A stretch of 64,000 nt of DNA from an uncultured Desulfobacter sp. (GTDB lineage Bacteria > Desulfobacterota > Desulfobacteria > Desulfobacterales > Desulfobacteraceae). A program made the position numbers and the translations under genes. The stretch spans positions 682,001 to 746,000 of the forward strand of contig NZ_OY762229.1 of the NCBI RefSeq assembly GCF_963665355.1, in the 5' to 3' direction. Within the stretch, counting starts at the first letter, position 1. Each line of letters starts with the position of its first letter. The notes under the pieces were generated by a model. The model was not told where the DNA came from, ran no database searches, and was given only the letters and a program-made list of their open reading frames with translations. Positions 22,495 to 45,302 of this stretch are shown here, piece after piece.

Positions 22495-22504
22495 GAGGAG
22501 TGTC

Positions 22505-24280: not shown

Positions 24281-24316
24281 TCCTTCAAGATGGCCTTTAA
24301 TGGAAAGGAAAAAATA

Positions 24317-25159: not shown

Positions 25160-25209
25160 AAACGCCATAATCCCCAAATGCGATGGTTCCATTAGTCTGC
25201 TTGAAAAAA

Positions 25210-25224
25210 TGACATTGAGTGTCA
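25210..25224. promoter_or_regulatory. TGACA-N5-TGTCA inverted repeat upstream of AraC gene
   Basis: TGACATTGAGTGTCA is symmetric with 5-bp arms and a 5-base spacer, 106 bases before the AraC start at 25330. It could be an operator for that gene. Confidence 0.3.
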
Positions 25225-25329
25225 ATTTAGGCCAGGCAAAATCATTAACCAGACTAAACCATATTTTGACATGGACAAACTTATCATTGTTGTATGTAGA
25301 TTAGCAATGTCTTGGAAAGAAGCCGTTCA

Positions 25330-26148
25330 ATGACCGATTGCATTCAGACAAAAGCCGATGTTATCTATCCGGTTGCCGGACAGTTGGGCGAACTTGTTTT
25401 TAAAATTAATGGTAAGGAAAAAAAATACTGCATTGGACCCAACGCCAATACCATTGGATTCCTTAAAGGAGTATGGGGACGGATGGACATTGATTCCGGC
25501 CTGCCTGTCACCTGTGTGGAACTGCACATTGATCCACGTCTTCTGAGCAGTTATCTGCCTGAACAGCTTATTGATGATGCACCGGGGGACAAACAGATCC
25601 GGCTTTTGCAAAAACAGGAATTTATATCTTTCCCTCTGGATCCGCAGTTGAGAAAAATCGCTCTGGAAATCCTGAATCCGCCGCCGGTTAATGGCCCTGC
25701 CCTTGAGTTATTTTATCAAAGCCGGGCTATGCTTCTTCTCTCCCGACAGGTGGAATTGTTCTGCCAAAATCTCCCAAAGTGTCAGGCAGGCCCTTCAAAG
25801 CCCGAAATCAAAGGCGGACTGGCCCAGGCAAAATCTATTTTGACGGCGGATTTCCTGAATCCGCCCACCATCCCTGTGCTGGCCAGGCGCTGCGGCCTCA
25901 ATGAATTCACCTTGAAAAAAGAGTTCAAACGGACCTTTAATTCCACCATTTTCACCTTTGTCCAAAAGTTGAAAATGGAACAGGCCTGGACCCTGATCAA
26001 AGAGGAAAACCATTCAGTGTCCCAAGCGGCAAATGCTGTTGGGTATGTCAATGTCAGCCATTTTGCACATGCCTTTAAAAAACATTTCAACATCAACCCC
26101 GGAGCACTGAAAAAAGAATGTGCAACCGGAGTATACTCAAGTATGTGA
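25330..26148 (+). CDS. AraC family transcriptional regulator
   Basis: 272 residues. The ATG at 25330 has GGAAAG upstream; an in-frame TTG at 25312 is less likely. The C-terminal double helix-turn-helix (LARRCGLNEFTLKKEFKR and VSQAANAVGYVNVSHFAHAF) is clear. The middle GPALELFYQSRAMLLLSRQ is a weak match to the PchR segment in the other two AraC proteins. It closes the 7-26 kb uptake region. The N-terminal sensing domain is shorter than in the other two, so it may sense a different ligand. Confidence 0.85.
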   Translation: MTDCIQTKADVIYPVAGQLGELVFKINGKEKKYCIGPNANTIGFLKGVWGRMDIDSGLPVTCVELHIDPRLLSSYLPEQLIDDAPGDKQIRLLQKQEFISFPLDPQLRKIALEILNPPPVNGPALELFYQSRAMLLLSRQVELFCQNLPKCQAGPSKPEIKGGLAQAKSILTADFLNPPTIPVLARRCGLNEFTLKKEFKRTFNSTIFTFVQKLKMEQAWTLIKEENHSVSQAANAVGYVNVSHFAHAFKKHFNINPGALKKECATGVYSSM

Positions 26149-30913: not shown

Positions 30914-30956
30914 TGTCCGGCACAGCAGAACAATATATCTTCTGCTGTGCCGGACA
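30914..30956. repeat. Palindromic element, copy 2 (17-bp perfect stem)
   Basis: TGTCCGGCACAGCAGAA (30914-30930) pairs exactly with 30940-30956; the loop is CAATATATC. It is a clear relative of the element at 30375-30414, 540 bases upstream. Confidence 0.7.
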
Positions 30957-31108
30957 GTATCTCCACTTAACTTTAATAACGAATCTGTAATGAAAAGGTT
31001 ACATCTTTCGTTAAAAAATTAGTTCCCGGGTTAATCTTGTCATGAATCCACTTTCTTTTCTTTTATTAATCAGCCGTTGCGTTTTAAATTCTTTAAGCAT
31101 GACAACTA

Positions 31109-31132
31109 GTTAAAAAAATTAATTTTTTTAAC
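31109..31132. promoter_or_regulatory. Perfect 24-bp AT-rich palindrome upstream of the 13-gene operon
   Basis: GTTAAAAAAATT is followed directly by its reverse complement. It lies 207 bases before the band-7 gene. It may be a metal-responsive regulator site, but the true promoter was not found, so this is a guess from symmetry and position. Confidence 0.35.
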
Positions 31133-31338
31133 GGAAAGACGTCAGCAAAATCTTTAAAAAAAAGGGTTGACGGTCCCATCATCCGTATTGTAACTGATCA
31201 ACCTTACATGTTTAAACGACATAAGACGTTTTTAAATGTCGATAAAAAAATTAAACCAGGCTGTGGCCGATTTGGCGGCAGAGCAGGACGGGCCAGACAG
31301 AGCAGTACCCCCAAAGGTCCGGTGTAAGGGATATTGAG

Positions 31339-32097
31339 ATGATCTCATTTTGGAAAATTGGATTTGCTTTTCTTACCGCTGTATTCATGCTGTCATCCAT
31401 CAGAATTAACCGTCAATATGTCCGGTCAGTTGTTTTCAGGTTCGGCCGCCTCAAGGGGGTAAAAGGCCCGGGAATTTTTTGGATAATTCCGGTCGTGGAT
31501 CAAATTGTCCGGGTGGATTTAAGAACCCGGCAGCTTGACGTTCCCAAACAGACCATCATCACCCGGGACAATATCAGCGTGGATGTGGATGCCGTTATTT
31601 ATTACCACGTCATTGATCCGGCCCAGGCCGTGGTGGAGGTTGAAGACTATGAAGGAGCCACGGCGCTCATTGCCCAGACCATGCTCCGGGATGTTCTGGG
31701 GCAGAACGAACTGGATTCGATCCTCTCGGACAGAGAAGTTCTTAACCAGAAAATTCAGGCCCTTCTTGAAACCGTGACCGCGCCCTGGGGTATCCGTGTG
31801 GAGATCGTCACCATCCGGGACATTGCCCTGCCCGAAAACATGCTTCGGGCCATTGCACGCCAGGCCGAGGCTGAACGGGAAAGACGGGCCCGGGTTATTC
31901 TCGCGGACGGAGAGTTCCAGGCATCACAACGGATGAGCGATGCGGCCAAAATTTACGAAACCACACCGGCCGCACTCAAGCTTCGGGAGTTTCAGACCCT
32001 GTCTGAAATCGCAAAGGAACGTAACCTGATCGTGGTCACCGGCGGCACAGATTCCACCGGCGCCATGATCGGATGCGCAAAGGCCCTTGACCGATGA
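31339..32097 (+). CDS. Band-7/SPFH (slipin-type) membrane protein
   Basis: 252 residues. One N-terminal membrane segment (about 5-22) then an SPFH domain (VFRFGRLKGVKGPGIFWIIP, DVDAVIYYHV) and an Arg/Glu/Ala-rich coiled coil (RQAEAERERRARVILADGE). Slipins form membrane microdomain scaffolds. It is the first gene of the operon that continues to 45302; its stop overlaps the permease start (ATGA). No NfeD partner is adjacent, unlike many slipin loci, so it may organise the import machinery. Confidence 0.88.
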   Translation: MISFWKIGFAFLTAVFMLSSIRINRQYVRSVVFRFGRLKGVKGPGIFWIIPVVDQIVRVDLRTRQLDVPKQTIITRDNISVDVDAVIYYHVIDPAQAVVEVEDYEGATALIAQTMLRDVLGQNELDSILSDREVLNQKIQALLETVTAPWGIRVEIVTIRDIALPENMLRAIARQAEAERERRARVILADGEFQASQRMSDAAKIYETTPAALKLREFQTLSEIAKERNLIVVTGGTDSTGAMIGCAKALDR

Positions 32098-33221
32098 GAC
32101 AGGCGCTTTTACGCACCACGCCGGCACTCTCCTGGCAGGTTGCCGGGAAAACCCGCACCGGGAAAATAACGCAGACGCGGCAGGCCCACGCCCGCTCCGT
32201 TCAGGCAAAATTCTTTTTTCTGGGGACCCTGCTCCTGCTGCTGATCATTTCGGCAAGTGTCATCATCACCCTGGGACAGGTTCCCATGACGGTCCGCCAG
32301 GTCTATCTCACCCTGTTTAACCGGTTGATCCCGGGCGGACTTGATATTGATCCCATTATCTCCCATGTCGTCTGGCACATCCGTATGCCGCTTATTACAG
32401 GAACCGTAATTTGCGGCGTGGGCTTAGGGATATGCGGATGTGTGATGCAGGCGGTTTTAAAAAATCCCATGGCAAGCCCCTTCACGTTAGGAATCTCCTC
32501 GGGTGCCCATTTCGGTGTCTCACTGGCCGCAGTTTTCGGCATCACCATTCTGGACGGGCCCTACTTTCTGGTGGGAAATGCCTTCCTTTGCGCCACGCTT
32601 TGTTCAGGCTTCATCATTGCCCTTTCAGCCCTGAAGGGCGCCACCTCGGAAACCCTGATCCTTGCCGGTATTGCCGTCAACTATCTGTTCCAGGCCGGCA
32701 ACCAGCTTTTAACCTACATTGCCGATGATGAACAGCGCACAGTCATGTCGTACTGGGGCATGGGATCTCTTTCGGATCTCAACGGAAACAGTCTGCTGTT
32801 TTTGGGCGTAATCTGTCTGATCTGCCTGCCGGCGCTCTATCGCAAGGCCTGGGATCTGAACCTGATGACCACGGGGGATGACTGTGCAAAAAGCTTAGGC
32901 GTGGATGCCAACAGGGTCCGCATGATGGTGATGGTGGCGGCAAGCCTGCTGGTTGCCGCCATTGTCGCCTTTACCGGTGTCATCGGATTTGTGGGGCTTG
33001 TGGCCCCCCACATCACCCGGATCATCATCGGCAATGACCACCGCTTCCTGATCCCGGCATCCGGCGGCATCGGCGGGGCACTGCTTTTGATTGCCAATGC
33101 CGTATCCATGAATATGCTGGGCGGCGTTGTCATACCTGTAGGCATCATCATGTCCATGCTGGGCATTCCCTTGTTTCTCTATCTGATCATCAGGGGCAAA
33201 CGCCGGGAGTTCTGGTCATGA
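32094..33221 (+). CDS. FecCD/BtuC-type ABC permease
   Basis: 375 residues with a basic cytoplasmic N-terminal extension of about 35 residues, then about ten membrane helices. Family motifs include ISSGAHFGVSLAAVFG and the GVIGFVGLVAPHITR segment that contacts the ATPase. It transports iron chelates, heme or corrinoids. Start and stop overlap the neighbouring genes, giving coupled translation with the band-7 protein and the ATPase. Confidence 0.92.
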   Translation: MRQALLRTTPALSWQVAGKTRTGKITQTRQAHARSVQAKFFFLGTLLLLLIISASVIITLGQVPMTVRQVYLTLFNRLIPGGLDIDPIISHVVWHIRMPLITGTVICGVGLGICGCVMQAVLKNPMASPFTLGISSGAHFGVSLAAVFGITILDGPYFLVGNAFLCATLCSGFIIALSALKGATSETLILAGIAVNYLFQAGNQLLTYIADDEQRTVMSYWGMGSLSDLNGNSLLFLGVICLICLPALYRKAWDLNLMTTGDDCAKSLGVDANRVRMMVMVAASLLVAAIVAFTGVIGFVGLVAPHITRIIIGNDHRFLIPASGGIGGALLLIANAVSMNMLGGVVIPVGIIMSMLGIPLFLYLIIRGKRREFWS

Positions 33222-34015
33222 TCACCAAGCTTACGGTTAAAAACCTTTGTTTTGGCTATGCCGATACCGATGTGCTGCACGACTTTTTCATGTCTGTGGA
33301 AGACGGCCGGATCGCCAGTATTGTGGGACCCAACGGGTCCGGCAAATCAACCCTGATCAAATGCATTGACCGGATTATTAAACCCCGTTCCGGCGGTGTG
33401 ATGGTAGCGCGCCGGGATCTGTTGAAAATGAACAGAAAGGAAGCGGCCCGCCTGATCGCCTATGTTCCCCAGAACTCTGTCAGGGTATTTGCCCATACGG
33501 TCTTTGACGTGGTGCTGATGGGGCGAAGACCCCACCTGGGATGGCGGGCAGATGAACACGATGAGGGCAAAGTCTGGGAAGTGCTCAGGCTTTTGGGCAT
33601 CGAAGAGCTGGCGCTGGCATTTTTCAGCGAGCTGTCCGGGGGCCAGCAGCAAAAGGTGTTGATCGCCCGGGCCCTGGCCCAGGATACAGGTCTGCTGCTT
33701 TTGGATGAACCCACCAGTAATCTGGATATCTGGCACCAGATCGATGTGATGGAAATTTTGCGCACCCTTGTCCGTAAACAGCGGATTACAGCCATTATCG
33801 CCATCCATGACCTGAACATGGCCGCCCGGTATTCCGACAGGATGCTGATGATGAAAAAAGGAAAAATACTGGCAAGCGGAACTCCGGAAGAGGTGCTGAC
33901 CCCGGAGAACCTTGAGGCGGTTTACGGGATCAAGGCCACGGTGAAACGCATCGGGGATTGCCCGTTCGTGATTCCGTTGTCACGGGTCTTGCCAAGCAGC
34001 CGGAGCAGAATGTGA
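33218..34015 (+). CDS. FecE/BtuD-type ABC ATPase
   Basis: 265 residues with Walker A GPNGSGKST (near residue 38), a Q-loop in VPQNSVRVFAH, signature LSGGQQQKV, Walker B LLLLDEPTSNLD and the switch His in AIHDLN. Start overlaps the permease stop (ATGA). It supplies energy to the preceding permease. Length and motifs are normal for the family. Confidence 0.94.
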   Translation: MITKLTVKNLCFGYADTDVLHDFFMSVEDGRIASIVGPNGSGKSTLIKCIDRIIKPRSGGVMVARRDLLKMNRKEAARLIAYVPQNSVRVFAHTVFDVVLMGRRPHLGWRADEHDEGKVWEVLRLLGIEELALAFFSELSGGQQQKVLIARALAQDTGLLLLDEPTSNLDIWHQIDVMEILRTLVRKQRITAIIAIHDLNMAARYSDRMLMMKKGKILASGTPEEVLTPENLEAVYGIKATVKRIGDCPFVIPLSRVLPSSRSRM

Positions 34016-34050: not shown

Positions 34051-35103
34051 ATGATTCGAAAATTAGGCGTCTTAATCAGCATACTGATGCTGACAGCCCT
34101 TTTTCCGGCAGGGGGAAGCAGCAACCCGGCTGCCGGATTATACCGGGAAATAACGGACATGGCCGGCCGGAAGGTCAAAATACCGGCAAGCATAACCAAA
34201 GTGCTGACCACATCTCCGCCGCCGGCGACATTTGTCTACATGATCGCACCCGAAAAGCTGGGCGGATGGTTTATGCCCCCAACCGGCCAGGCCCGCAAGT
34301 ATATCCCGGAAAAATTTCACCATATCCCGGTGATGGGCAGGGAACGACAGGCCTCGAACTACGAAGCCTATATTGCCGCACGTCCCGACCTGGTGTTTGT
34401 GTCATATGAAGCCGGTACAGATCCTTCAAATATCGACCTGATTCAGGAGAAGTTCGGCATGATCCCGGTTGTCTGTGTGGAAAATACCAGAAACGCGGTG
34501 GGTTATGCCGACACCCTGCGGTTCATGGGAGAGGTTCTCGGTGTACCGGCGCGGGGCAACGCTCTGGTTGACTACTATCTCAAGGTATTGCAGGAGGTGC
34601 AGCAAAAGGTTTCCGGCGTGCCGGAAAAGAAAAGAAAACGGGTCTATTATGCCGAAAAGGAGAACGGGCTTGCCACCGATCCTGCCGGCTCCTGTCATTC
34701 CCAGCTGATCGATGTGTGTGGCGGCATCAACGTCGCCCAATGTCAATTTTCATCCGGGCGCGGCATGACCCAGGTGACAATGGAATCGATATTGATGTGG
34801 AATCCTGAGATTATCATCACCACAAGTTCGGAATTTGTCCGGCATGCCTATGGTGACGGAACCTGGAAAAAGATTCCCGCCGTACAAAACCGCCGGATCC
34901 ATTGCGCCCCCCGGATACCGTTTAACTGGTTTGACCGCCCCCCCGGGGTCAACCGCATCGCGGGCATTCCCTGGACAGCCCATGTTCTGTATCCAAAGCT
35001 TTTCCCGGAAAACTGGGCCAAAACAAAGGTGAAGACCTTTTTCTCCCTGTTTTACCATTATGACCTAAGCGAAGATGAGCTTTCCTCGCTGATAAGCAGT
35101 TGA
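34051..35103 (+). CDS. Periplasmic substrate-binding protein of the FecCD-type importer
   Basis: 350 residues from the ATG at 34051, chosen because a signal peptide begins there (MIRKLGVLISILMLTALF) and AGGAGG lies upstream; an ATG at 34015 overlaps the ATPase stop. TroA/FecB-like fold: N-lobe REITDMAGRKVKIPASITKV and C-lobe CGGINVAQ with a late PFNWFDRPPGVNRIAG segment common in metal-chelate binders. The C-lobe resembles the C-terminal part of the radical SAM protein at 37329. Confidence 0.9.
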   Translation: MIRKLGVLISILMLTALFPAGGSSNPAAGLYREITDMAGRKVKIPASITKVLTTSPPPATFVYMIAPEKLGGWFMPPTGQARKYIPEKFHHIPVMGRERQASNYEAYIAARPDLVFVSYEAGTDPSNIDLIQEKFGMIPVVCVENTRNAVGYADTLRFMGEVLGVPARGNALVDYYLKVLQEVQQKVSGVPEKKRKRVYYAEKENGLATDPAGSCHSQLIDVCGGINVAQCQFSSGRGMTQVTMESILMWNPEIIITTSSEFVRHAYGDGTWKKIPAVQNRRIHCAPRIPFNWFDRPPGVNRIAGIPWTAHVLYPKLFPENWAKTKVKTFFSLFYHYDLSEDELSSLISS

Positions 35104-35139: not shown

Positions 35140-37317
35140 ATGAGAAGAGTGAACTATTGGGCTGAAAAGTTGATGAATTACGGCGAAATGAAATTATGGA
35201 AACTTGTTTGTGTTACGGGGTTATTGTTGATCCTGATTCTGAACACCTCCCATGTCATGGGTGCTGAAACCGAAACAGTTGTAAGCGAAGGCGAAGATAC
35301 GGCGGCCGTGACAGACGATAAACAGCAAAAATCAGACGTTGAGGAACTTGCACCGCTCACCGTGACAGGATCAAAAAGATCGACCCGGCCGGATCTTCAC
35401 CCCCACAGCCTGACCAATCTCTACAGGACTGAAGTCAGCACCGAATTTGCCTCGGAGGTGTTCACCCGGCAGGATATTCAAAACTTCAAACCCAAAGACT
35501 TAAACGATCTGATCGACAAAGCCGCCGGGATTAATATCACATACCAGGGCCGGAAAAGCCCTTATATGATTCAAATGAGAGGCGGCGGAACGTTTACCTA
35601 CATTATCGACGGCGCTGTTCTGCCCAAATCCGTCAACCGGATTCTGTATAAATTCCCGGTCGCTTCCATTGAAGAGCTGAAAATAGTCAGGGGCGCCACC
35701 TCGCTGACCCTGGGGCCGACGATCCCCATTGGCTCATCCGGTTCGGGATCAGGTATAAACACCGGATTCATCATCATCCGGACCCGGCAGCCGGAAAAAA
35801 CCGAAGGCACCTTGCGCGCCAACGTGGAAAAGTCCATAGGCGGACACCCGGCGGGTTATTCAACCGACCTGTTTGTGGGTACCCGCATGAAAAACCAAGC
35901 CGGTACCGAGGCTTATGTCAGCGCCCTGGCATCAAAAATGGACCGCCCGAGCCAGGATACATGGTTTGACGGACAGGAATCCCATGGGGGAATGGCCAAT
36001 ACCGGATTCACATCAGGGAAATTCAACTTCAACATGATGGTGTACAAGGACTCCGGAGAATTCGAAATGCAGCGCGGCGTCAAGGAAGACGGAAGCCTGG
36101 ACACTGCCAAATGGTACTACGATCCCCTGGAGGTCAAGATATTGTCAACGGACGGGAGCCTGCAATGGACTCCCGATCAGGTAACGCTGTTCAACGTATT
36201 CAAAACCGACTATGAGCAGCATGAGCATAACGAAACCTTCGGTTCCACAAGCGGTACGGATAGAGACCAGTACAACGAGGATACGTCCGGATTCGGCCTG
36301 CGGCACAATGCCCGGTTTGCAGACACCCTGATACAGGCAGGGTTCCAGATGTCCAGCAGCACGGGATACGGCCCCAACTTAAAAACCAGTTACAACAGAT
36401 ACGATACAACCGTCACAGGGTTCTCGGCCTCGGTGGAGCAATCCCTTTTCAACAACAGTCTGGTTCTGGATCTTGGCGGGCGCTGGGATGAAAAACACAT
36501 CGACAACACCAGTTCCGCCAGGAGCGCCAGCCTTGCCACCGATGATGCCAATAATGATGTGGATATGGCCCCGGCAAAGGTGGTTGCCTTCGGTGCCCAT
36601 TGGAAGGTGACGGACCGGGTCACCCTGGACGGCCGGTATTTTTACGGGGATCAGGGAACATCCGGGGATTTTGATATGCGCCTGGAAGACGACGCCACCC
36701 CCCATGCCGAAAAGCAGGAACGTGTTGAAATCGGTTTAGGCGTGGCGATTGCTTCCTTTTTCAACCCGACGCTAACCTGGTTTAACATTGATACGGAAAA
36801 TGAAAAAACAGCCACCACCGCCACCTACGAACTGGACTCCGGCACCTATTACTATTACACCGAATCCGATGAACTCAGACGGGGAATTGAGCTGGCGATT
36901 CAGGGAACGATCTTGAAAAACACTTTTTACAAGGCCAGTTGGACCCGCATGATCAAAAGTGAAAGCACCAGCGACGGCGTCACCACCGATGCCATCGGCG
37001 TCTCCATACCCGAAAATATCTTCGGGCTGACCCTGACCCACCACTGGAACGCTTACCGGTTTAATATATCCGTCAAACAGGTGGACGAATGGATCGAAAC
37101 CACCAGTGGCATGGGAACCGCCTCAACCGGCGGGCTTGGCGATTATACCCGGGTGGATGCCAACATCTCCAGGGATTTTGCGTTAAAAAACATAATCATA
37201 AACGCAGCGATTTTCGGACGGAATCTGGGAGACGAAAATTATTCCACACGCTACGCCACCGGATACTACCCGGATCGCGGGCGAACCCTTGGTATGGAAG
37301 TCTCATTCTCTTTTTAA
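35140..37317 (+). CDS. TonB-dependent outer-membrane receptor of the 13-gene operon
   Basis: 725 residues with AAAGGAAAA upstream. A long signal region (hydrophobic core about 20-40) and an acidic stretch lead to the TonB box-like ELAPLTVTGSKR, a plug at about 85-210 (GINITYQGRKSPYMIQMRGG, VRGATSLTLGP) and a barrel ending in MEVSFSF with terminal Phe. It is distant from the two FyuA-like receptors. It lies with its own ABC importer and TonB complex, so its substrate should be the one handled by those genes. Confidence 0.92.
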   Translation: MRRVNYWAEKLMNYGEMKLWKLVCVTGLLLILILNTSHVMGAETETVVSEGEDTAAVTDDKQQKSDVEELAPLTVTGSKRSTRPDLHPHSLTNLYRTEVSTEFASEVFTRQDIQNFKPKDLNDLIDKAAGINITYQGRKSPYMIQMRGGGTFTYIIDGAVLPKSVNRILYKFPVASIEELKIVRGATSLTLGPTIPIGSSGSGSGINTGFIIIRTRQPEKTEGTLRANVEKSIGGHPAGYSTDLFVGTRMKNQAGTEAYVSALASKMDRPSQDTWFDGQESHGGMANTGFTSGKFNFNMMVYKDSGEFEMQRGVKEDGSLDTAKWYYDPLEVKILSTDGSLQWTPDQVTLFNVFKTDYEQHEHNETFGSTSGTDRDQYNEDTSGFGLRHNARFADTLIQAGFQMSSSTGYGPNLKTSYNRYDTTVTGFSASVEQSLFNNSLVLDLGGRWDEKHIDNTSSARSASLATDDANNDVDMAPAKVVAFGAHWKVTDRVTLDGRYFYGDQGTSGDFDMRLEDDATPHAEKQERVEIGLGVAIASFFNPTLTWFNIDTENEKTATTATYELDSGTYYYYTESDELRRGIELAIQGTILKNTFYKASWTRMIKSESTSDGVTTDAIGVSIPENIFGLTLTHHWNAYRFNISVKQVDEWIETTSGMGTASTGGLGDYTRVDANISRDFALKNIIINAAIFGRNLGDENYSTRYATGYYPDRGRTLGMEVSFSF

Positions 37318-37328
37318 GGAAAATTGTC

Positions 37329-39119
37329 ATGGTTAATATAGCTTGCCATATCTGTGAACAAGGATGCGTACTGGCCGAAGGGAAAACAGGAGTGTGCGGC
37401 ATGTATGAACAAAAAGACGGACGCATTGAAGAGCGGTTCGCCGACCGGTATCTGCTTGTCTGTCCCATCTCCATTGAAACCATGCCCATGCTGCACTATT
37501 TTCCCGGGGGAAAATTCCTCCAGATCAGCACCACCGGCTGCAATTTCAACTGCCCGGGCTGTATTTCCGCTGTCATTGTCCGGGAGATGCCCTCGGACAG
37601 CAAGGCGTTTCACACCCTGACACCGGAACAGATCGTTGAAAAAGCGATTGAGGAAAACTGTGAGGGCATCGCGTTTTTAATGAATGATCCTCTGGCATCC
37701 TTTCCGACATTCCTGGGCGTGGCAAAACTGGCACGGTCCAAAGGGCTTAAGGTCGGCTGTTCTTCAAACACCTATTTTACCCCAAAGGCACTGGACCTGC
37801 TTGTGCCTTATCTGGATTTCATCAACATCGGCATGAAGGGATTTACAGACAAAGCCTATTACGCCTGTGGTGCGTCTTCCGGCATCGCCCCGGTTCTGCG
37901 CAATATCCGGGCACTGGTCTGTGCAGGGGTTCATGTGGAGATCTCGTCCATCCTGATGAAAGATAATGCCCGGGACCTGCTGGATCTGGCGAAATTTATT
38001 GCACAGCTGTCCCCTGCCATTCCATTGCAGGTGATGCGGTTCATTCCCTTTGAAAGTGCCGATATTTCACAGGAGCCCGGTGTGCGGGAAGCCGAAGCGT
38101 TCTGCTTTGAACTTCGCAAAACTCTTCCCTTTGTTTATCTTTTCAATACCCCCGGGACAACGCTTCTCCATACGGCCTGCCCCAATTGTAACCACACGGT
38201 GTATAAGCGCAACTTTCACGGCCCCATGGGTGCCAAACCCTATGAAGTGCCCGAGGCATCCCTGCAAGACGGATTGTGTCCCCAATGCCGGCAGGGTTTG
38301 AATATGATGGGTGTTTCTCCGCAAACCCCGTACCAGGAAAGAGACTTTCAAGGCGGATACCCCTTTACCCGGGCCCTGGAAATGGTGGAAGCCATGCTCA
38401 TCGCCATGGGGGTGAAGGAAAAAAGCAAACTTGCAACGGCATGGGAGTCCCTGCTTGGAAAGGAGGGGTTGAAAAAACTGCATCATACCATCCAGACGCC
38501 TTACACCTATATCCAGGGGCTGCGCCATTTCGGAAAAATTGTCCAGGTCCCGGATGCCGCAGAAGAACTGGCCGTATACCTGGAAGAAAAACTTTTGGCC
38601 ATTGAATCGGGGGTTGCATCGGTGACGACATCTCCTCTGGTCTATTACACCATGGCAAAGCCGATGTTTTACCTGAATTACAGCCGCTTGGAAAACCAGC
38701 TCATAGAAACGGCCGGCGGAACCAGTGTGAACAAATACCTTGAATCCGGGGGAAGGCCGGGCCTAAGTCTTACCGTTGAAAAACTTAACGAGCTGAATCC
38801 GGATATTATTTTTATTTCCGCGTTTATTTCCAACTCCGTGACTGATTTTTACCAGGATTGCATAGAGCTTGGTATTGAGGTCAATGCGGTAAAAAACCGT
38901 CAAATTTTTACCCCGCCCTGTCCGGGATGGGATTTTGGCAGTCCCCGCTGGATATTGGGACTGATGTACATGGCCAATGTACTGCATCCGCAAATTTTTG
39001 ATTTCAATGTCATGGAAGAGGCAACATATTTTTACCGTAAATTTTATCACATGGAATTTTCACCATCCCGGATTAACCGCTCTTTCAGTAAACCGGACAG
39101 AGAATGGCAATGGAGATAA
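37329..39119 (+). CDS. Radical SAM protein fused to a binding-protein-like C-terminal domain
   Basis: 596 residues, ATG at 37329 after AAGGAAAA. Residues 1-35 carry a Cys cluster (CHICEQGC at 6-13 and C23). The radical SAM domain has CNFNCPGC at 71-78 (CX3CX2C), with the SIETMPMLHYFPGG lead-in typical of AmmeMemoRadiSam/PflA-like enzymes. A Cys-rich pair (CPNC ... CPQC, about 280-325) follows. From about residue 430 to the end it resembles the C-lobe of the periplasmic binding protein encoded by the same operon (VYYTMAKPMF, LIETAGGTSVNKY, LNPDIIFIS). No signal peptide, so cytoplasmic. It could bind and modify the imported ligand. Confidence 0.85.
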   Translation: MVNIACHICEQGCVLAEGKTGVCGMYEQKDGRIEERFADRYLLVCPISIETMPMLHYFPGGKFLQISTTGCNFNCPGCISAVIVREMPSDSKAFHTLTPEQIVEKAIEENCEGIAFLMNDPLASFPTFLGVAKLARSKGLKVGCSSNTYFTPKALDLLVPYLDFINIGMKGFTDKAYYACGASSGIAPVLRNIRALVCAGVHVEISSILMKDNARDLLDLAKFIAQLSPAIPLQVMRFIPFESADISQEPGVREAEAFCFELRKTLPFVYLFNTPGTTLLHTACPNCNHTVYKRNFHGPMGAKPYEVPEASLQDGLCPQCRQGLNMMGVSPQTPYQERDFQGGYPFTRALEMVEAMLIAMGVKEKSKLATAWESLLGKEGLKKLHHTIQTPYTYIQGLRHFGKIVQVPDAAEELAVYLEEKLLAIESGVASVTTSPLVYYTMAKPMFYLNYSRLENQLIETAGGTSVNKYLESGGRPGLSLTVEKLNELNPDIIFISAFISNSVTDFYQDCIELGIEVNAVKNRQIFTPPCPGWDFGSPRWILGLMYMANVLHPQIFDFNVMEEATYFYRKFYHMEFSPSRINRSFSKPDREWQWR

Positions 39120-39121
39120 AG

Positions 39122-39751
39122 ATGGATGTTTCTAAATATGACCATAGCGCCAGGGGTAAAAACGCCCCCTTGTATGCGTACTACGCAAAGAAAATAAAAG
39201 ATGAAACAGGTGTCGTGTCGGGCCGCTGCCTTGATGTGGGCTGCGGCGGCGGGTATCTTGGACTGGCCCTTGCCGGCATAACGGATCTTGAATTTACCTT
39301 TCTTGATATTTCAGCTCAAATGCTTGAAAAGGCAGACGCCCATATCATTGAAGACGGTCTTCAAAACAGGGCCAGAACCCTGCAGGGCGATGTCCACCAG
39401 ATTCCTTTGCCGGACCAATGCATGGATCTGGTAATCAGCCGCGGATCAATTCCGTTCTGGGAAAATCCGGGCAAAGCGCTGTCGGAAATATACCGGTTGC
39501 TGGCACCCCATGGGAAAGCATTTGTCGGCGGCGGCAGGGGAACGCCTGAAATGCGCAAGCAGTTTGAAAAAAATATGAAAAAGGATGGTTTCTCAAAACC
39601 GGGAGGCAAAAAACGGCGCCCCGGTGGCCCGGACGATCCCTGGAAAATAATGAAAAGCCGTAACTTTGACCAAATTTTAAAGGATGTGGGAATTACCCGT
39701 TTTTCCGCCCCTATAGAAGAGGATGGTCGATGGATACGGTTATGGAAATAA
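39122..39751 (+). CDS. Class I SAM-dependent methyltransferase
   Basis: 209 residues. The start at 39122 has GGAG six bases upstream; an ATG at 39104 inside the previous gene is an alternative. Motif I CLDVGCGGGYLGLALAG near residue 35, then TFLDISAQML and VISRGSIPFWENPGKAL. It lies two bases after the radical SAM fusion, so the two enzymes are probably translated together and may act in turn on the imported molecule. The Lys/Arg/Pro-rich stretch at about 155-180 is unusual. Confidence 0.85.
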   Translation: MDVSKYDHSARGKNAPLYAYYAKKIKDETGVVSGRCLDVGCGGGYLGLALAGITDLEFTFLDISAQMLEKADAHIIEDGLQNRARTLQGDVHQIPLPDQCMDLVISRGSIPFWENPGKALSEIYRLLAPHGKAFVGGGRGTPEMRKQFEKNMKKDGFSKPGGKKRRPGGPDDPWKIMKSRNFDQILKDVGITRFSAPIEEDGRWIRLWK

Positions 39752-39791
39752 TATTTCTGGTTTGAATTCAAGGTTGATGGAAGGAAAGATC

Positions 39792-40622
39792 ATGGGAAGC
39801 CCAAAGAATCTAAGATCCCAAGGTAATGGCAAAACATGGATGAAGTGCGCCGTCATTGTATCTCTGCTCATACTCCCGGCATGGACCGGATCTGGCGCCC
39901 TTGCCCAGGTATCGGTTCCAAAGGATATTGAAGCCCCGGTCGGCAATGCCGTGGATACCCGCCAGGCCACCCAGGAAACCAGGGAAAAATGGGATGCCCA
40001 GCGCCAGGCGCTTGCAGAGGAGTATGACCGCCTTAAAGAAGAAAATGAGCAACTTGCCTTTGCCAACGCCAATCTGACCCAAAAGCGTGGGGATCTGGAA
40101 AAATCAATTCAGGACCTGACCCGGGAAAAAGAAGAGGCCCAGCGGATCAGGACGGAACTGGCCCCATTCTTAAAAGAACTGCTTAACCGCCTGAAATCCC
40201 TTGTCACATCGGACATCCCGTTTTTATCCCGGGAGCGCAACGACCGTCTGGCCCGCCTGGAGGTGATCCTGGATGATCCTGATATCACCATCGCCGAAAA
40301 ATACAGAAAAATGATGGAAGCCCTGTTTGTGGAAGCCGAATACGGCAACACGGTGGAGGTGTACCGGGAAAAAATTGTTGTGGACGGCGCAGAAGTCCTT
40401 GCGGACATTTTCCGCATGGGCCGGGTGGCGCTGTTCTTCCTGGCCCTGGACCGGGAAAACGCAGGAATTTTTGACGTAGCGGCAAATCAATGGCACACCC
40501 TGGACAAAACCCGTGTGCCGGCCATTGAGGCTGTGGTGGAGATGGCGGCCAAACACAGGCCCATGGAGGTGGTGGCCCTGCCCCTGGGCGCCATTGCGCC
40601 GGAAGGAGAAGATCAGAAATGA
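39792..40622 (+). CDS. DUF3450 periplasmic coiled-coil protein of a TonB2-type system
   Basis: 276 residues, ATG at 39792 after AAGGAAAG. A signal peptide (cleavage near GALAQ) is followed by a long coiled coil (about 50-125, LKEENEQLAFANANLTQKR) and a compact C-terminal domain. DUF3450 genes typically begin TonB2-type clusters with ExbB-like TtpC. The stop overlaps the next start (ATGA). Confidence 0.87.
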   Translation: MGSPKNLRSQGNGKTWMKCAVIVSLLILPAWTGSGALAQVSVPKDIEAPVGNAVDTRQATQETREKWDAQRQALAEEYDRLKEENEQLAFANANLTQKRGDLEKSIQDLTREKEEAQRIRTELAPFLKELLNRLKSLVTSDIPFLSRERNDRLARLEVILDDPDITIAEKYRKMMEALFVEAEYGNTVEVYREKIVVDGAEVLADIFRMGRVALFFLALDRENAGIFDVAANQWHTLDKTRVPAIEAVVEMAAKHRPMEVVALPLGAIAPEGEDQK

Positions 40623-42151
40623 TACCGGCGAAACACATCTCCATTCATTTAAGGAAAGTAAAATTACTGATCAGCCTGGTCGTGGCCGCGGCAGCCGTCG
40701 GCCTGGCGGCCCCTGCCCCCAAAGCCCTGGCAGCTGATATGCGCAAGTCCTATGCGGATCTTGAACAAAAACGGGAAGCCATGGCTGCTGAAGCGGCAAA
40801 AGAACTGGCAGCCGCCAGGGCCGAGGCCCGGGAAGAGGCCCAGTCCATAAAAAATGATAAAGAGGCCCTTGTCTCGGCCATTGCAGCCCTGAAAGCCCGG
40901 AACGGCGTTCTTCAGGCCGCCAATGAAACCCTCAAGGAAAAAACGGATGCCCTGGCCAAGGAACAGGCCGAATTGCAGAGCACCCTTGAAGAGTCCAGAA
41001 TGGTAAACAAGGAACTGGCAGGCTTTGTGAGAACAGGGGCCAAGGATCTCAACAGCCTTCTGGTTCAAAGCCCCCAAAGCGCCTTTGACAAAAACCGGAA
41101 CAGTTTTCTTGGACCCGTCATCAACCAGGAGCGGTTCTGGTCCATGGACGACATCCGCGGGATGTCCGATATCCTGTTTGACGAAATCCTGGCGTCGGGG
41201 GAGGTCTGCCTGCGCCGGGGCATGGTGGTGGACCGCCAGGGAAAGGACAGAACCGCCCGGATTTTGAGCATCGGCAATTTCACCTCCCTTTACGTACTCA
41301 ATGATGATGCAGGCCGCAAATCGGAAACCGGTTTTCTGCTCTATTCGGATCAAAGCAGCCGGTTCTTTGCCCTGTCCAGACTGCCCTCAACGAAACTTGC
41401 GGACCAGATTGATGACTATATTGCAGGTCAAAGCGACTGTGTGCCTGTGGATATCTCCAAAGGCGGGGCTCTCAGGCGGTTTACCCACGAGTTGAACCTG
41501 ATGGATCAGATACCCAAAGGCGGCCCCCTTGTCTGGCCCATCCTCGCTCTATTGGCAGTAGCCGTTTTTATCCTGCTGGAGCGTGGGGTTTTCTTTTTCC
41601 GGCATCAGATCCGCATTGAGCCGTTTATGGCGAAACTTTCGCCTTTACTTGAATCCGGAAACTTCCAGGCCTGCCGGGATCTGCTGCAAGGCAACAAAAA
41701 CGGATTCATACCCCGGGTTCTGCTTAAAGCCCTGCCTGCCCGGGAGCAGAGCCGCATTGATATGGAAAATATACTCCAGGAAGCGATCCTGGCGGAAATC
41801 CCTGCCATTGAACGATTTCTCTCCACCCTGGGCATGCTGGCCGCCATTGCACCGCTCATGGGACTTCTGGGAACGGTGACCGGCATGATCAACACCTTCC
41901 ATGTGATCACCTATTACGGGGCCGGAGACCCCAGAATGATGTCCGGCGGCATCTCCGAGGCCCTTGTCACCACCATGCTCGGATTGACCGTGGCCATTCC
42001 CATCATGCTGTTCCACACCCTTCTGGCCCGGCAGGTGGAGACCCAGATCAGCACCATGGAGGAAAAAGCCGTGGCCTTTGTCAACATGGTGTTCAAGGCA
42101 AGGAACGGCTGCCGGTCCGCCGCCATGGACGATCAAAAAAGCCGGGATTAA
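40619..42151 (+). CDS. TtpC-like MotA/TolQ/ExbB protein with N-terminal periplasmic coiled coil
   Basis: 510 residues, clearly longer than ordinary ExbB. A signal-like first helix, a coiled-coil periplasmic region at about 40-130, a central domain, then membrane segments and the conserved MotA/TolQ/ExbB core at about 300-490 (IERFLSTLGMLAAIAPLMGL and TVTGMINTFHVI). TtpC-type proteins act with ExbB, ExbD and TonB in the TonB2 system described in Vibrio. Gap to the next ExbB is 12 bases. Confidence 0.88.
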   Translation: MIPAKHISIHLRKVKLLISLVVAAAAVGLAAPAPKALAADMRKSYADLEQKREAMAAEAAKELAAARAEAREEAQSIKNDKEALVSAIAALKARNGVLQAANETLKEKTDALAKEQAELQSTLEESRMVNKELAGFVRTGAKDLNSLLVQSPQSAFDKNRNSFLGPVINQERFWSMDDIRGMSDILFDEILASGEVCLRRGMVVDRQGKDRTARILSIGNFTSLYVLNDDAGRKSETGFLLYSDQSSRFFALSRLPSTKLADQIDDYIAGQSDCVPVDISKGGALRRFTHELNLMDQIPKGGPLVWPILALLAVAVFILLERGVFFFRHQIRIEPFMAKLSPLLESGNFQACRDLLQGNKNGFIPRVLLKALPAREQSRIDMENILQEAILAEIPAIERFLSTLGMLAAIAPLMGLLGTVTGMINTFHVITYYGAGDPRMMSGGISEALVTTMLGLTVAIPIMLFHTLLARQVETQISTMEEKAVAFVNMVFKARNGCRSAAMDDQKSRD

Positions 42152-42163
42152 GGAGCTGGCCGC

Positions 42164-42787
42164 ATGGACGAGCTTTTCTACCAGATGACCGCTTATATCC
42201 GTTCCGGCGGGGTGGTGATGGGGCCCATTTTGTGCGTCTCCCTTGTGATGTGGGTACTGATCTTCAACCGCCTGTTTTTTCTCCACCGCCTCTATGTGAA
42301 AAACATGCCCAGGGCCATGGCCGGGGAACTGGTCAGAGGAAACCTGTGGCCCGAAACAAAATATAAGGGTGCCAATGCCTTCCTGGTCCGGGCGTTTCTA
42401 TCCCGGCGCAGCCCGGTATCCGACCCGGAACTTGACGAGCGGATTCTTGATGAAACGGTTATGGCCTTGACCGCCTCTTTGGACCGGTACCTGGCCCTGA
42501 TCGGCGTGCTCTCTGCAGTGGCCCCCCTCATGGGTCTTCTGGGCACGGTGGTGGGCATGATGGAGACCTTTGATGTGATCACGGTCTTCGGCACGGGCAA
42601 TGTCCGGGCCATGGCATCGGGGATCTCCGTGGCCCTTGTGACCACCCAGACGGGCCTTATGATCTCCATTCCCGGACTTTACATGAGCGGGTGGCTGAAC
42701 AGGCGGGCCTCCAATCTGAAACACCGCATCGCCTCCACAGCCATGTATCTTAAACCCTTTATCCGCAACAGGAGTGTGTCATGCTGA
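42164..42787 (+). CDS. exbB: ExbB/TolQ proton-channel protein
   Basis: 207 residues, ATG after AAGGAG. Three membrane segments and the ExbB core (LSAVAPLMGLLGTVVGMMET). It forms the inner-membrane proton channel with ExbD. It overlaps exbD by seven bases. The preceding TtpC-like gene carries the same core, so the complex has two ExbB-type subunits. Confidence 0.92.
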   Translation: MDELFYQMTAYIRSGGVVMGPILCVSLVMWVLIFNRLFFLHRLYVKNMPRAMAGELVRGNLWPETKYKGANAFLVRAFLSRRSPVSDPELDERILDETVMALTASLDRYLALIGVLSAVAPLMGLLGTVVGMMETFDVITVFGTGNVRAMASGISVALVTTQTGLMISIPGLYMSGWLNRRASNLKHRIASTAMYLKPFIRNRSVSC

Positions 42788-43200
42788 ATATATCCGCGTC
42801 CAGGCGGGCCGCAAAAAAGAGCCTTGAACTCAATATCGCGCCTTTGATCGATATGGTGTTCATCCTTCTGATCTTTTTTCTGGTCACCACCTCCTTTGTC
42901 AAGGAGACCGGCGTGGACATCTCCCGGCCCACGGCCAGTACGGCTGTAGCCAAAACCAAATCCACCATTCTCATCGGCATCACCCAAGACAATACCATTC
43001 ATCTTGACCGCAGGGAAATCGATATCCGGGCCGTGCGCTCGGGTGTTGAGCGGGCCATGGCGGAAAATCCCGAAGCCTGCGTGGTGATTGTGGCGGACAA
43101 GGAGAGCAAAACCGGTATAGTGATCTCGGTCATGGATGCCTGCAAACTGGCCGGGGCGGAAAACGTGGCCATTGCCGCAAGCCGGCCGGAGGGTGAATAA
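42781..43200 (+). CDS. exbD: ExbD/TolR biopolymer transport protein
   Basis: 139 residues. A short cytoplasmic tail, one membrane helix (about 17-37, IAPLIDMVFILLIFFLV with the conserved Asp), then the periplasmic domain. It pairs with ExbB to convert proton-motive force. The last 120 or so bases are near-identical to the partial copy at the left edge of the window. Ends directly before tonB. Confidence 0.94.
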   Translation: MLNISASRRAAKKSLELNIAPLIDMVFILLIFFLVTTSFVKETGVDISRPTASTAVAKTKSTILIGITQDNTIHLDRREIDIRAVRSGVERAMAENPEACVVIVADKESKTGIVISVMDACKLAGAENVAIAASRPEGE

Positions 43201-43920
43201 ATGGCAAATACTGTTCAGATGACTTCCCGGGAAACATCCCGTACATCGTATTCAGGCATAATTCTGGTCTGGATCTCGGTCATAGCCCTGGCTTCAGGGC
43301 TTAATCTGTTTATCTTCGGAATATTGCCGGCCCTGATCCAAAGCATTCCCCATGCACCGGATGATACAAAGCTCATCCAGGCCATCCAGGTTGTCCGGAT
43401 CAAGCGTCCGGAGACGCCGCCACGCAAAAAAGAGCCGCCCAAACCCCATGAACAGCCCAGGGAAATGGTGTCAGCCGCCAAAATTGTGCAGAAACAAATT
43501 CAAAAACCCACCATTGACAGGCCGAATCTGTCTGTGGCGTTAAATCCCAATTTGCCAGAGCTGCCTAACAGTATTGCTTTGGGCCAGTTAGCAAATTTTA
43601 CCATGAAAACACAGATGCCCCCGGGTCTGTTTTCCACGTCACAGCTTGATTATCCTTTGCAGACGCTGGTGCGTTTACCTGCCTCCTATCCCATGCGGGC
43701 CAGAAGACTTGGCATCGAAGGCTGGGTCAAAGTGGAATTTGTTGTCACAAGAGAAGGCCTGGTAAGGGATATAAAGGTGGTGGGAGCCCAGCCCAAGGGT
43801 GTGTTTGAATCCAGTGTAACCCAATCCGTATCCCAGTACCGGTTCAAGCCGGGAACCGTGGACGGAAACACCGTTGAGGTGCGTGTCGTGACCACCATCC
43901 GGTTTAAAATGGAGGCGTGA
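43201..43920 (+). CDS. tonB: TonB family energy-transducing protein (copy 2)
   Basis: 239 residues with anchor at about 22-44, Pro/Lys-rich linker and C-terminal TonB domain. Compared with copy 1 the linker is identical, but the membrane anchor differs and four residues are missing, mainly in the N-terminal region. It starts at the base after the exbD stop and overlaps the TPR gene by one base. It should energise the receptor at 35140 and perhaps others. Confidence 0.94.
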   Translation: MANTVQMTSRETSRTSYSGIILVWISVIALASGLNLFIFGILPALIQSIPHAPDDTKLIQAIQVVRIKRPETPPRKKEPPKPHEQPREMVSAAKIVQKQIQKPTIDRPNLSVALNPNLPELPNSIALGQLANFTMKTQMPPGLFSTSQLDYPLQTLVRLPASYPMRARRLGIEGWVKVEFVVTREGLVRDIKVVGAQPKGVFESSVTQSVSQYRFKPGTVDGNTVEVRVVTTIRFKMEA

Positions 43921-45302
43921 TGACCAGATTATTGCGGGCTTGTCTTGTGTCAATTTTATTGGTTTTTTCTGAGAATGCACCTTTGTGGGCCGGCCAGAAT
44001 GAAGATCCGCTTCCGTTTGCCGCTGGAATCTGTGCAAACAAAATTGTGGGGCTCATGGAAAAGAAAAGCTATGCCGATGCTGTCCGGCACATTGAAGCCT
44101 TCCAGGCCAAGGCAGAAACCGTTGAGCCTGATACGGCAGACAAAAAGGGCTACACCCACTATTACCTGGATTTTCTTCTGGGCAACTGCTGCATGATGAT
44201 GGAAAAACAAGGGATCGGCTATGTGAAAAAAGCAGCGTCGGCCTATGAACAGGCCGTTAAAAAATATGACGGGTTTTACCAGGCATGGGTGAACCTGGGC
44301 CAGTGCCGGTATACCCTTAAACAGATGGATAAAGCTGCCCTGTCCTTTATCCGGGCCTATGATACTGCCCCGGAAAAAAAGGGAGTATACCTTTATCAGG
44401 CAGCGGCATCTTATTATTTTAACGCCGATTATCAGAACGCCTTTGATACCTTTAACAGGCTGCAGAAAAACCATCCTGCCGAAGTGACCCTTGACAGAAC
44501 AGAGGTGCTGGTCAACATTCTTTTTTCTTTGAAAAAAAACCGGCAGGCCCTGCCCTATCTTAAAGAACTGGCTGAAAAATCCACGATAGAGAAAAAAAAG
44601 ACATGGCAGGAGGTGCTGCTGTACCAGTACATGGAACTTGGCATGGATAAACAGGCCCTGGACTATGCCTGCACACTGACCTGTCAGGAACCCGAAGAAC
44701 CTAAGTGGTGGCGGGCCTTAGCACATATCCATCTTGATAAAAACCGCCTTGAAAAAGGGCTTGAGGCGTTCATGGTTTACAGTTTCACCACGCCCTTGTC
44801 CGCATCCGAAACCAAACTTCTGGCTGATCTGTACGCCGGGTGCAATATTCCCCTGGAAGCGGCCAGGGTGTATGAAGCATGGCTGGAAAAGATTCAGAAA
44901 GACCCGACAGATCCAACCGATGTCAAAGGAAAAAAAATGACAGACCGCTTCCTTGCCATAGCCCAGGCCTACCTGCAGGGCAGGGATTACGAGACAGCCC
45001 TCAAGTGGGCAGACACAGGCCTTTCCCAGGGATGTGATGCAAGGCTTTTAGCCTTTAAGGCGGACCTGCTGTTCCGGGGGAAAAAATACAAACCAGCATA
45101 TAGCGCATACAAGGAGCTGGCCGATCGCGGCAATTCCCCGGGCCGGTCCTGGCTCATGGCCGGATATGCAGCCCTGAGCAGCGAGAATCCGGAACAGGCA
45201 AAACAGGCTTTTTCCCGGGCCTGTAAATATCCCAAGGAAAAGCCGACAGCCCTGGTTGTCCTCAAACAAATTCAGGTAAGGCAGGCAGAAGAAGAACTTT
45301 AA
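43920..45302 (+). CDS. Secreted TPR-repeat protein of a TonB2-type system (copy 2)
   Basis: 460 residues from the ATG at 43920 overlapping the tonB stop. Signal peptide, then TPR helices throughout; close paralogue of 854-2236 with substitutions spread along the length. It is the last gene of the operon that starts at 31339. No terminator hairpin was recognised after it. Confidence 0.86.
   Translation: MTRLLRACLVSILLVFSENAPLWAGQNEDPLPFAAGICANKIVGLMEKKSYADAVRHIEAFQAKAETVEPDTADKKGYTHYYLDFLLGNCCMMMEKQGIGYVKKAASAYEQAVKKYDGFYQAWVNLGQCRYTLKQMDKAALSFIRAYDTAPEKKGVYLYQAAASYYFNADYQNAFDTFNRLQKNHPAEVTLDRTEVLVNILFSLKKNRQALPYLKELAEKSTIEKKKTWQEVLLYQYMELGMDKQALDYACTLTCQEPEEPKWWRALAHIHLDKNRLEKGLEAFMVYSFTTPLSASETKLLADLYAGCNIPLEAARVYEAWLEKIQKDPTDPTDVKGKKMTDRFLAIAQAYLQGRDYETALKWADTGLSQGCDARLLAFKADLLFRGKKYKPAYSAYKELADRGNSPGRSWLMAGYAALSSENPEQAKQAFSRACKYPKEKPTALVVLKQIQVRQAEEEL

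Follow-up and report, generated by a model that had tools for sequence, protein, structure and literature searches.

The stretch of DNA analyzed here (the window; 64,000 nucleotides of a contig from an uncultured Desulfobacter sp.) carries, at positions 37329 to 39119 of the plus strand, an open reading frame (ORF) for a single chain of 596 residues in which a radical S-adenosylmethionine (SAM) enzyme is fused to the C-lobe of a binding protein. A preliminary description of the sequence had placed this gene within an import operon, and this was borne out by the genes for a FecCD permease, an ATPase, a binding protein, and a TonB receptor that lie upstream on the same strand. The genes and the parts of the fusion are listed below. 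Residue counts refer to an alignment of 60 fusions (56 of the 73 called in the contig scan described below, the window protein, its paralogue, and two relatives from the phylum).

31339 to 32097, plus strand: SPFH/Band 7 membrane protein, likely the first gene of the operon, with a 4-bp overlap with the next (Pfam Band_7, 6.5e-40)
32094 to 33221, plus strand: FecCD-type (type II importer) permease (Pfam FecCD, 2.9e-79)
33218 to 34015, plus strand: ABC ATPase of the importer (Pfam ABC_tran, 9.3e-30)
34051 to 35103, plus strand: periplasmic class III binding protein of the importer (Pfam Peripla_BP_2, 7.4e-18)
35140 to 37317, plus strand: TonB-dependent outer-membrane receptor (Pfam Plug, 5.9e-11)
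37329 to 39119, plus strand: fusion of a radical SAM enzyme and a binding-protein C-lobe (Pfam, PDB search, alignment, AlphaFold2, Foldseek)
37344 to 37397, plus strand: N-terminal CX2CX3CX9C (residues 6-23), also found in AmmeMemo-type radical SAM proteins (60/60 fusions, 23/23 plain relatives)
37539 to 37562, plus strand: radical SAM CX3CX2C (residues 71-78; 60/60 fusions)
38178 to 38288, plus strand: Zn-ribbon-like Cys pairs (residues 284, 287, 317, and 320; 60, 60, 59, and 58 of 60 fusions)
38352 to 38504, plus strand: helical linker with an invariant GGY (residues 342-344), where the binding-protein N-lobe would be (alignment, AlphaFold2)
38505 to 39059, plus strand: class III backbone helix, C-lobe, and C-terminal helices (residues 393-577; Pfam, Foldseek match 4hn9_A)
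39104 to 39751, plus strand: class I SAM-dependent methyltransferase, a conserved partner (Pfam Methyltransf_11, 9.7e-21)
39723 to 43920, plus strand: energy-transduction genes for DUF3450, MotA/ExbB, ExbB-like, ExbD-like, and TonB proteins (Pfam DUF3450, MotA_ExbB, TonB_C)

Analysis of the N-terminal half showed the Radical_SAM profile (PF04055) at residues 67-224 (3.1e-16; 60.4 bits against a cutoff of 29.5) and the previously noticed CX3CX2C motif with cysteines 71, 75, and 78. By motif and profile, the fusion is a member of the radical SAM superfamily. The extra cysteine clusters that had also been pointed out, Cys 6/9/13/23 and Cys 284/287/317/320, are carried by the window protein itself, and each cysteine was found in at least 58 of the 60 aligned fusions. 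Two other cysteines separate the fusions from the plain relatives: Cys144 occurs in 57/60 fusions compared to 1/23 plain relatives, and Cys180 in 57/60 compared to 0/23. The best NCBIfam match was the AmmeMemoRadiSam radical SAM enzyme (TIGR04337; 2.6e-36, residues 4-324), the score of which, 125.2 bits, falls below the cutoff of 220.

The C-terminal half was assigned by several methods. The Pfam match to Peripla_BP_2 at residues 393-528, like that to Radical_SAM, exceeds its gathering score, but barely (28.2 bits against 27.5), and it enters the profile at position 94 of 235. A phmmer search of PDB chains (E ≤1) gave six matches, all of them binding proteins and all within residues 384-584, the best being 4ovk (6.8e-14), and the profile of the fusion family also matched class III binding proteins on its C-terminal part. 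AlphaFold2 predicted the whole fusion as a confident single unit (predicted local distance difference test [pLDDT], 94.4; predicted template modeling score, 0.93) and the C-terminal 266 residues alone with a pLDDT of 93.3. In Foldseek, these 266 residues aligned with 4hn9_A, a class III binding protein, across 196 columns at 2.2 Å. The whole model gave class III binding proteins as top matches, and PflA (3c8f; the best radical SAM structure match of the barrel), QueE, viperin, and NifB were also present. The binding-protein C-lobe seen by eye in the preliminary description is therefore of the class III fold and not an unrelated one. From N to C terminus, the chain runs from a radical SAM barrel of the PflA/AmmeMemo type through a helical linker to the backbone helix and C-lobe of a class III (FecB-type) binding protein. 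Of the two lobes of such a protein, the N-lobe is missing; in the AlphaFold2 model of the C-terminal part, residues about 330-392 are helices and coil. A missed stop between two genes, or an assembly artifact, was ruled out because 70 of the 73 called fusion ORFs are full-length (in 68 loci) and the 60 aligned fusions share G342, G343, and Y344 of the linker. The reported absence of a signal peptide was also confirmed by a crude test: no export leader was seen in the window fusion, the best 15-residue hydropathy mean in its first 45 residues being 1.22, and with starts trimmed to the conserved part a mean above 1.6 was reached by 0/60 fusions compared to 52/64 binding proteins.

The fusion of a radical SAM enzyme to a binding-protein lobe is real and unusual. 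A search for other such fusions, suggested in the preliminary description, was made by a contig scan of 79 loci (the best 79 of 116 confirmed stretches; loci, genomes, and contigs carry the prefixes L, G, and C). In 71 of these loci 73 fusion ORFs were called, the three that are not full-length being one broken (L085) and two short (L093 and L104). The other eight loci had tblastn matches without a called fusion ORF, and some of these may be sequencing breaks. The full-length loci belong to nine phyla: Methanobacteriota (23), Thermodesulfobacteriota (17), Bacillota (15), Campylobacterota (4), Myxococcota (3), Deferribacterota (3), and Chlorobiota, Spirochaetota, and Pseudomonadota (1 each). 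Methanogenic archaea are among the carriers, and some have two diverged fusions per locus, convergent at L090 1468-5060 and divergent at L100 4146-11737. In the window's phylum, full-length matches were found in 3 of 198 genomes, the window's included. The 60 aligned fusions form one clade: a branch with a Shimodaira-Hasegawa-like approximate likelihood ratio (SH-aLRT) value of 99 separates them from four other radical SAM proteins (two plain ones and two sister stand-alone ones). The tree was made by a quick method from an alignment that includes lobe columns not present in the outgroups, and long branches were flagged in it. The window's genome has two fusions, 36% identical, each with an ATPase, FecCD, binding protein, TonB receptor, and methyltransferase. 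The second full operon is at L114 7291-14727 (G000 C2, about 5.33 Mb) and has the order ATPase, FecCD, binding protein, TonB receptor, fusion paralogue, and methyltransferase.

Fusion genes are linked to importer and methyltransferase genes. Neighbor statistics were based on 34 fusion matches, some of them partial, in 28 genomes, and refer to the matches listed. Of the 34 fusions, 22 had a FecCD gene within 8 kb and 29 had one within 15 kb, compared to 0.64 and 1.21, respectively, expected from density, whereas only 1/26 plain AmmeMemo-type radical SAM genes had FecCD within 8 kb. For these counts, 120 of 162 FecCD matches were used (weak and partial ones were omitted), as were 57 of 72 for FmdE, 96 of 126 for TOBE (mostly one per tandem pair), and 48 of 51 for DUF364. 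A methyltransferase (protein clusters 1 or 4) was found on the same strand within 300 bp of 41/70 full-length fusions and 43/73 overall; among the plain loci (about 4 kb), 3/27 held such a methyltransferase anywhere. In the window, the methyltransferase may start at 39122, two bases past the fusion stop as previously described, or at the alternative start 39104, which gives a 16-base overlap. FmdE genes lay within 8 kb of 3/34 fusions (0.31 expected); this search excluded G000, and therefore the two fusions of the window's genome could not score. DUF364 genes lay within 8 kb of 5/34 (0.26 expected), or 6/34 if an omitted fragment adjoining a fusion (G201 C13 48842) is counted. TOBE-domain genes lay within 8 kb of 4/34 fusions compared to 3/91 other FecCD genes, and three of these four fusions are from related Sulfurospirillum loci. 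Genes for a CobW/HypB-type GTPase and an SBP_bac_6 protein were also seen near fusions (L041 11818-12516, L085 18684-19571, and also L075); the SBP_bac_6 protein shows no signal peptide by eye and is possibly another cytoplasmic binding protein.

Comparison of the fused lobe with transport binding proteins showed that it retains the fold residues but not the same working residues. The transport set had 64 proteins (63 of the 74 nonfusion members of protein cluster 0, 300-420 residues long and without CX3CX2C, plus the window's binding protein). A C-lobe Glu, which we take from BtuF/BtuC work to be the permease-docking residue, occurs in 61/64 transport proteins compared to 27/60 fusions; the window fusion keeps it (position 484). 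At column 455, His (44/64 transport proteins) is replaced by Glu (57/60 fusions), and at column 541, Arg (41/64) is replaced by Trp (59/60). Asn at column 468 and Cys511 each occur in 59/60 fusions compared to 3/64 transport proteins. The inter-lobe loops of class III binding proteins come after strand ends, and so do the conserved fusion stretches MGKPLF, GRPG, and WDFGSPRW; the conserved loops of the fused lobe are at residues 442-447, 475-478, 497-499, and 532-541. From the alignment, we infer that a conserved cleft particular to the fused lobe faces the barrel and that permease docking is probably not the task of this lobe in most members. It need not share a ligand with the transport proteins, as the docking Glu is often absent and other pocket residues are conserved. 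The setting given in the preliminary description, that of a cytoplasmic radical SAM enzyme that carries a C-lobe and has genetic links to FecCD importers and a methyltransferase, stands; the proposal made there that the lobe captures the ligand delivered by the importer is plausible, but the neighboring binding proteins and the fused lobe differ at columns 455, 541, and 511.

A pointer to the metal came from RNA elements in relatives. An Rfam scan of 49 of the 79 loci (the other 30 being 28 archaeal loci, L093, and L108) found a molybdenum/tungsten (Mo/W)-cofactor riboswitch in 10: RF01055 in eight (L043, L044, L046, L049, L053, L060, L098, and L099) and Moco-II (RF01713; Moco, molybdenum cofactor) in two (L055 and L057). 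On the fusion's strand and ahead of it, RF01055 lies in L044, L046, L049, L060, L098, and L099, and Moco-II in L055 and L057. The gene orders, from our own gene calls, were as follows.

L049: RF01055, then binding protein, fusion, methyltransferase
L044: RF01055, then TonB receptor, methyltransferase, fusion, binding proteins
L046: RF01055, then BioB-like radical SAM gene, fusion
L060: RF01055, then FecCD, ATPase, binding protein, BioB-like protein, binding protein, fusion, methyltransferase
L098 and L099: RF01055, then binding protein, fusion
L055: Moco-II, then methyltransferase, TonB receptor, binding protein, FecCD, ATPase, FmdE, methyltransferase, fusion
L057: two blocks on the same strand, Moco-II with methyltransferase and TonB receptor at one end, FmdE with fusion at the other
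L043: RF01055 directly 3′ of the fusion
L053: two RF01055 elements 3 kb past the fusion, ahead of formate-dehydrogenase-type genes

It is unsure whether L057 is one operon because ORFs on the opposite strand were called between its two ends. A search of 44 genomes listed 101 RF01055 riboswitches (98 over the cutoff, 97 used), and within the 15 riboswitch-bearing genomes RF01055 was present in 8/17 scanned loci compared to 0.57 expected (P ∼2.7e-8), where the density counts the tested matches too and P assumes independent loci although two locus pairs share a genome. The rows led by RF01055, six in number, are spread over the tree, with 5 label changes compared to a mean of 5.8 in shuffles; L044 is one of them and falls in the 12-row clade of the window protein. 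Stem P3 is missing from the RF01055 elements of L044, L098, and L099 but present in those of L043, L046, L049, and L060; in excerpts of Regulski et al. (PMC2408646), forms lacking P3 are tied to the tungsten cofactor (Tuco) and P3-bearing forms to Moco. A cobalamin riboswitch was found in L048, 3′ of the fusion stretch and ahead of other genes. In another genome (G203 C4 28773-29944), a plain radical SAM gene of the AmmeMemo type is followed on its strand, after 96 bases, by a Mo/W riboswitch, which may be chance.

A second pointer was a ModE-type protein in the Sulfurospirillum loci L059, L063, and L070, with HTH_1 and two TOBE stretches (Pfam, L063 copy). Its gene separates an ExbB/TonB-receptor/binding-protein group from a globin/binding-protein/fusion group that includes one or two methyltransferases. 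The gap between ExbB and ModE genes holds a conserved palindrome that resembles a ModE box. In several relatives, the fusion appears from sequence to belong to a Mo/W-responsive regulon under Moco/Tuco RNA or ModE control. The globin of these three loci, between the ModE-type gene and the binding protein, is a truncated hemoglobin (Bac_globin; Pfam, one L070 copy), a family with two copies in L063 and in L070. No ModE site was found in the window, where the presumed consensus gave one ModE-like match with three mismatches, at 63234, compared to 0.57 expected.

The reading that we favor, tentatively and with slightly less than even confidence, is that the fusion is a cytoplasmic radical SAM enzyme of a Mo/W-acquisition system of anaerobes and processes an imported Mo/W complex. 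We consider an enzyme of Mo/W acquisition more probable than a heme enzyme because Mo/W-cofactor RNAs and a ModE-type regulator accompany the relatives. In the proposed mechanism, the TonB receptor (in Gram-negatives), the binding protein, and the FecCD-type importer would bring in the Mo/W complex. The radical SAM barrel would occupy the place of the N-lobe, so that the C-lobe could hold an organic ligand, free or metal-bound, in the lobe-barrel cleft and present it to the 5′-deoxyadenosyl radical. The fusion would then modify or open the held ligand, the neighboring methyltransferase would act on the same small molecule, and the oxometalate would pass to Moco/Tuco synthesis. The earlier suggestion that the enzyme acts to free a metal survives in this form, with Mo/W as the likeliest metal. 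In line with it, the third-best solved relative of the operon's own binding protein is MolA of Haemophilus, a molybdate-binding protein according to its PDB title (HI_1472, 3psa, 4.9e-15, after 4pag at 2e-51 and 4ovk at 8.6e-21).

Several observations weigh against processing of a Mo/W complex. The operon's binding protein also matches B12- and heme-binding proteins, with weaker scores, and the pocket residues of the fused lobe are unlike those of the transport proteins. By our own gene calls, 29/70 full-length fusions have no methyltransferase within 300 bp. Thirty-nine of the 49 scanned loci are without a Mo/W RNA, and in five genomes the genes with RF01055 within 10 kb numbered 2/6 for fusions, 2/20 for other FecCD genes (24 of 29 FecCD matches used), and 1/4 for plain radical SAM genes, a control that is indecisive because there are too few genes to separate the groups. 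The window and the paralogue locus L114 gave no Rfam match, and RF01055 was not found in the window's genome in a search with stricter filters; therefore, the Mo/W reading reaches the window's own species by kinship. Finally, FmdE (15/91) and DUF364 (10/91) genes occur just as often near FecCD genes remote from fusions as near fusions. Because this control was as rich, the two families were rejected as specific evidence for Mo/W. Their general enrichment near FecCD agrees with remarks in excerpts of PMC2954224 and PMC2954201 that they sit beside metal transporters.

A serious rival, although we think it unlikely, is chelator synthesis, in which the fusion, the methyltransferase, and sometimes a BioB-like radical SAM enzyme would build a secreted Mo/W binder that TonB and FecCD proteins retrieve, the lobe holding the growing or finished chelator. 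It is taken seriously because some loci combine a pair of radical SAM genes with one or two methyltransferases. For instance, the BioB-like protein (cluster 16, identified by Pfam on the L043 member) is encoded within the operons that the RNA leads in L060 and L046, and in L044 its gene lies directly before the RNA. The Moco RNA of Escherichia coli is an OFF switch, as would be expected for scavenger synthesis (PMC2408646, in excerpt), and DUF364 neighbors have been proposed, in an excerpt of PMC2954201, to make pterin- or siderophore-like chelators. Export could be served by a MATE-like transporter (cluster 24, by sequence reading) encoded two genes before the fusion and on its strand in L039. 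However, this transporter occurs in three loci and on the fusion's strand in one, and no other recurrent exporter was seen in the nameable clusters; assembly enzymes such as nonribosomal peptide synthetases were not recognized, no profile search having been made for them; and importers adjoin fusions in archaea and Firmicutes too. Processing is preferred over synthesis because importers lie near most fusions, with the MATE-like protein as the sole recurrent exporter in nameable clusters.

A role as metal chaperone or in cofactor maturation is less probable still. The lobe would bind oxo- or thiometalate once the importer has released it, and a cofactor precursor or a protein would be the target of the radical domain, in a manner similar to that of NifB for nitrogenase. 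NifB is indeed among the solved radical SAM neighbors in Foldseek, after PflA, QueE, and viperin, and Cys144, Cys180, and Cys511 are nearly invariant, but no gene for Moco synthesis is a constant neighbor, the MoeA-type cluster 14 being present in 4 loci. HutW, ChuW, and HmuW are anaerobic heme-degrading radical SAM enzymes, and the fusion might in a like manner remodel a tetrapyrrole or corrinoid, as the preliminary description also suggested; we regard this as improbable. The window's TonB receptor scores weakly as a heme receptor (NCBIfam TonB-hemin, 32.5 bits against a cutoff of 316.85), the heme d1 enzyme family NirJ gave a very weak NCBIfam match to the fusion (13.1 bits), L048 has its cobalamin riboswitch, and HmuW is located in a heme-uptake operon (PMC10404700, in excerpt). 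However, no heme-degrading radical SAM family (HutW/ChuW/HmuW) was among the 15 NCBIfam families matched by the fusion at E ≤0.1, the L048 RNA stands ahead of genes other than the fusion, and the RNAs that do stand ahead of fusions are of the Mo/W type, with ModE in relatives; the tetrapyrrole suggestion is weakened accordingly. An activase of a glycyl radical enzyme with an incidental sensing lobe, for which the PflA match of the barrel speaks, is very improbable; no glycyl radical enzyme was recognized among the annotated neighbor clusters, which are a minority of the clusters.

Other features of the window touch the operon or its surroundings. The SPFH gene has a counterpart in the same place in Desulfobacter vibrioformis (L035; 91% identical). 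Before it (window 30950-31340; L035 3520-3916), AACTAGTTAAAAAAATTAA and GTTGACGG..CCCAT.ATCCGTATTGTAACTGATCAA are strongly conserved with that species. The block is a candidate promoter or operator; no nameable motif was found inside it upstream of 31339, and a promoter scan was uninformative (13 sites compared to 14.9 in shuffles). The ExbB-like (42164) and ExbD-like (42781) genes were called from sequence and likeness to neighbor clusters. The pair of TonB-like and TPR-like genes at 123-2233 closely resembles the pair at 43201-45299, which points to duplicated TonB modules. About 5 kb upstream of the operon, the region 20716-26145 encodes a pair of ABC exporter-type half-transporters together with an AraC regulator and a leucine-carboxyl-methyltransferase-like protein, which may form a separate siderophore-type system.

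Sulfidic, anaerobic habitats have little free molybdate or tungstate, and formate dehydrogenases, formylmethanofuran dehydrogenases, and aldehyde oxidoreductases need Mo/W. To our knowledge, little has been established on how anaerobes acquire these metals by routes other than ModABC, TupABC, and WtpABC. Our searches of open PubMed Central papers found none on a radical SAM-binding-lobe fusion. A widespread fusion preceded by Mo/W RNAs in several lineages offers a gene for knockout and a domain that can be tested for ligands. A wider proposal, possible although we hold it with some doubt, is an organic Mo/W-chelate economy of anaerobes, in which bacteria and methanogens would import Mo/W on a dedicated small molecule that the fusion makes or breaks inside the cell. 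If true, this would be a Mo/W counterpart of anaerobic heme breakdown under Moco, Tuco, and ModE signals. The fusion would also be a case of an extracytoplasmic receptor lobe reused as the substrate clamp of a cytoplasmic enzyme.

The fusion can be compared with four known or related systems. Stand-alone radical SAM proteins in similar clusters, such as those of L117 (6249-7289) and L120 (8542-9546), have a related barrel with Cys111 and Cys144 in 2/2; that of L117 adjoins FecCD, binding proteins, a methyltransferase, FmdE, and DUF364. Unlike the fusion, they have no fused lobe, and in L117 and L118 a member of a protein family about 400 residues in length comes next. This family (L117 5107-6312, L118 5329-6888, L083 5148-6326, and L102 4646-5956) adjoins the stand-alone sister radical SAM gene in L117, L118, and L102, and the one member examined had no Pfam or PDB match. 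The AmmeMemoRadiSam enzyme (TIGR04337) shares with the fusion the N-terminal CX2CX3CX9C and the Zn-ribbon Cys pairs, whereas the fusion has conserved residues of its own (Gly77, Cys144, Cys180, Met236, Phe272, and GPM 298-300) and in addition bears the binding-protein lobe and the FecCD linkage (22/34 compared to 1/26 plain relatives). Class III binding proteins, including MolA (HI1472) and CeuE (HP1561), have the same fold in the backbone helix, C-lobe, and last helices; the fusion differs by the missing N-lobe, the lack of a visible leader, the less frequent docking Glu (27/60 compared to 61/64), and Cys511. Finally, HutW/ChuW/HmuW offer a parallel as radical SAM enzymes within metal-uptake loci (PMC10404700 and PMC10035031, in excerpt), from which the fusion is set apart by the lack of a match to their family profile, the Mo/W RNAs in its relatives, and its binding-protein lobe.

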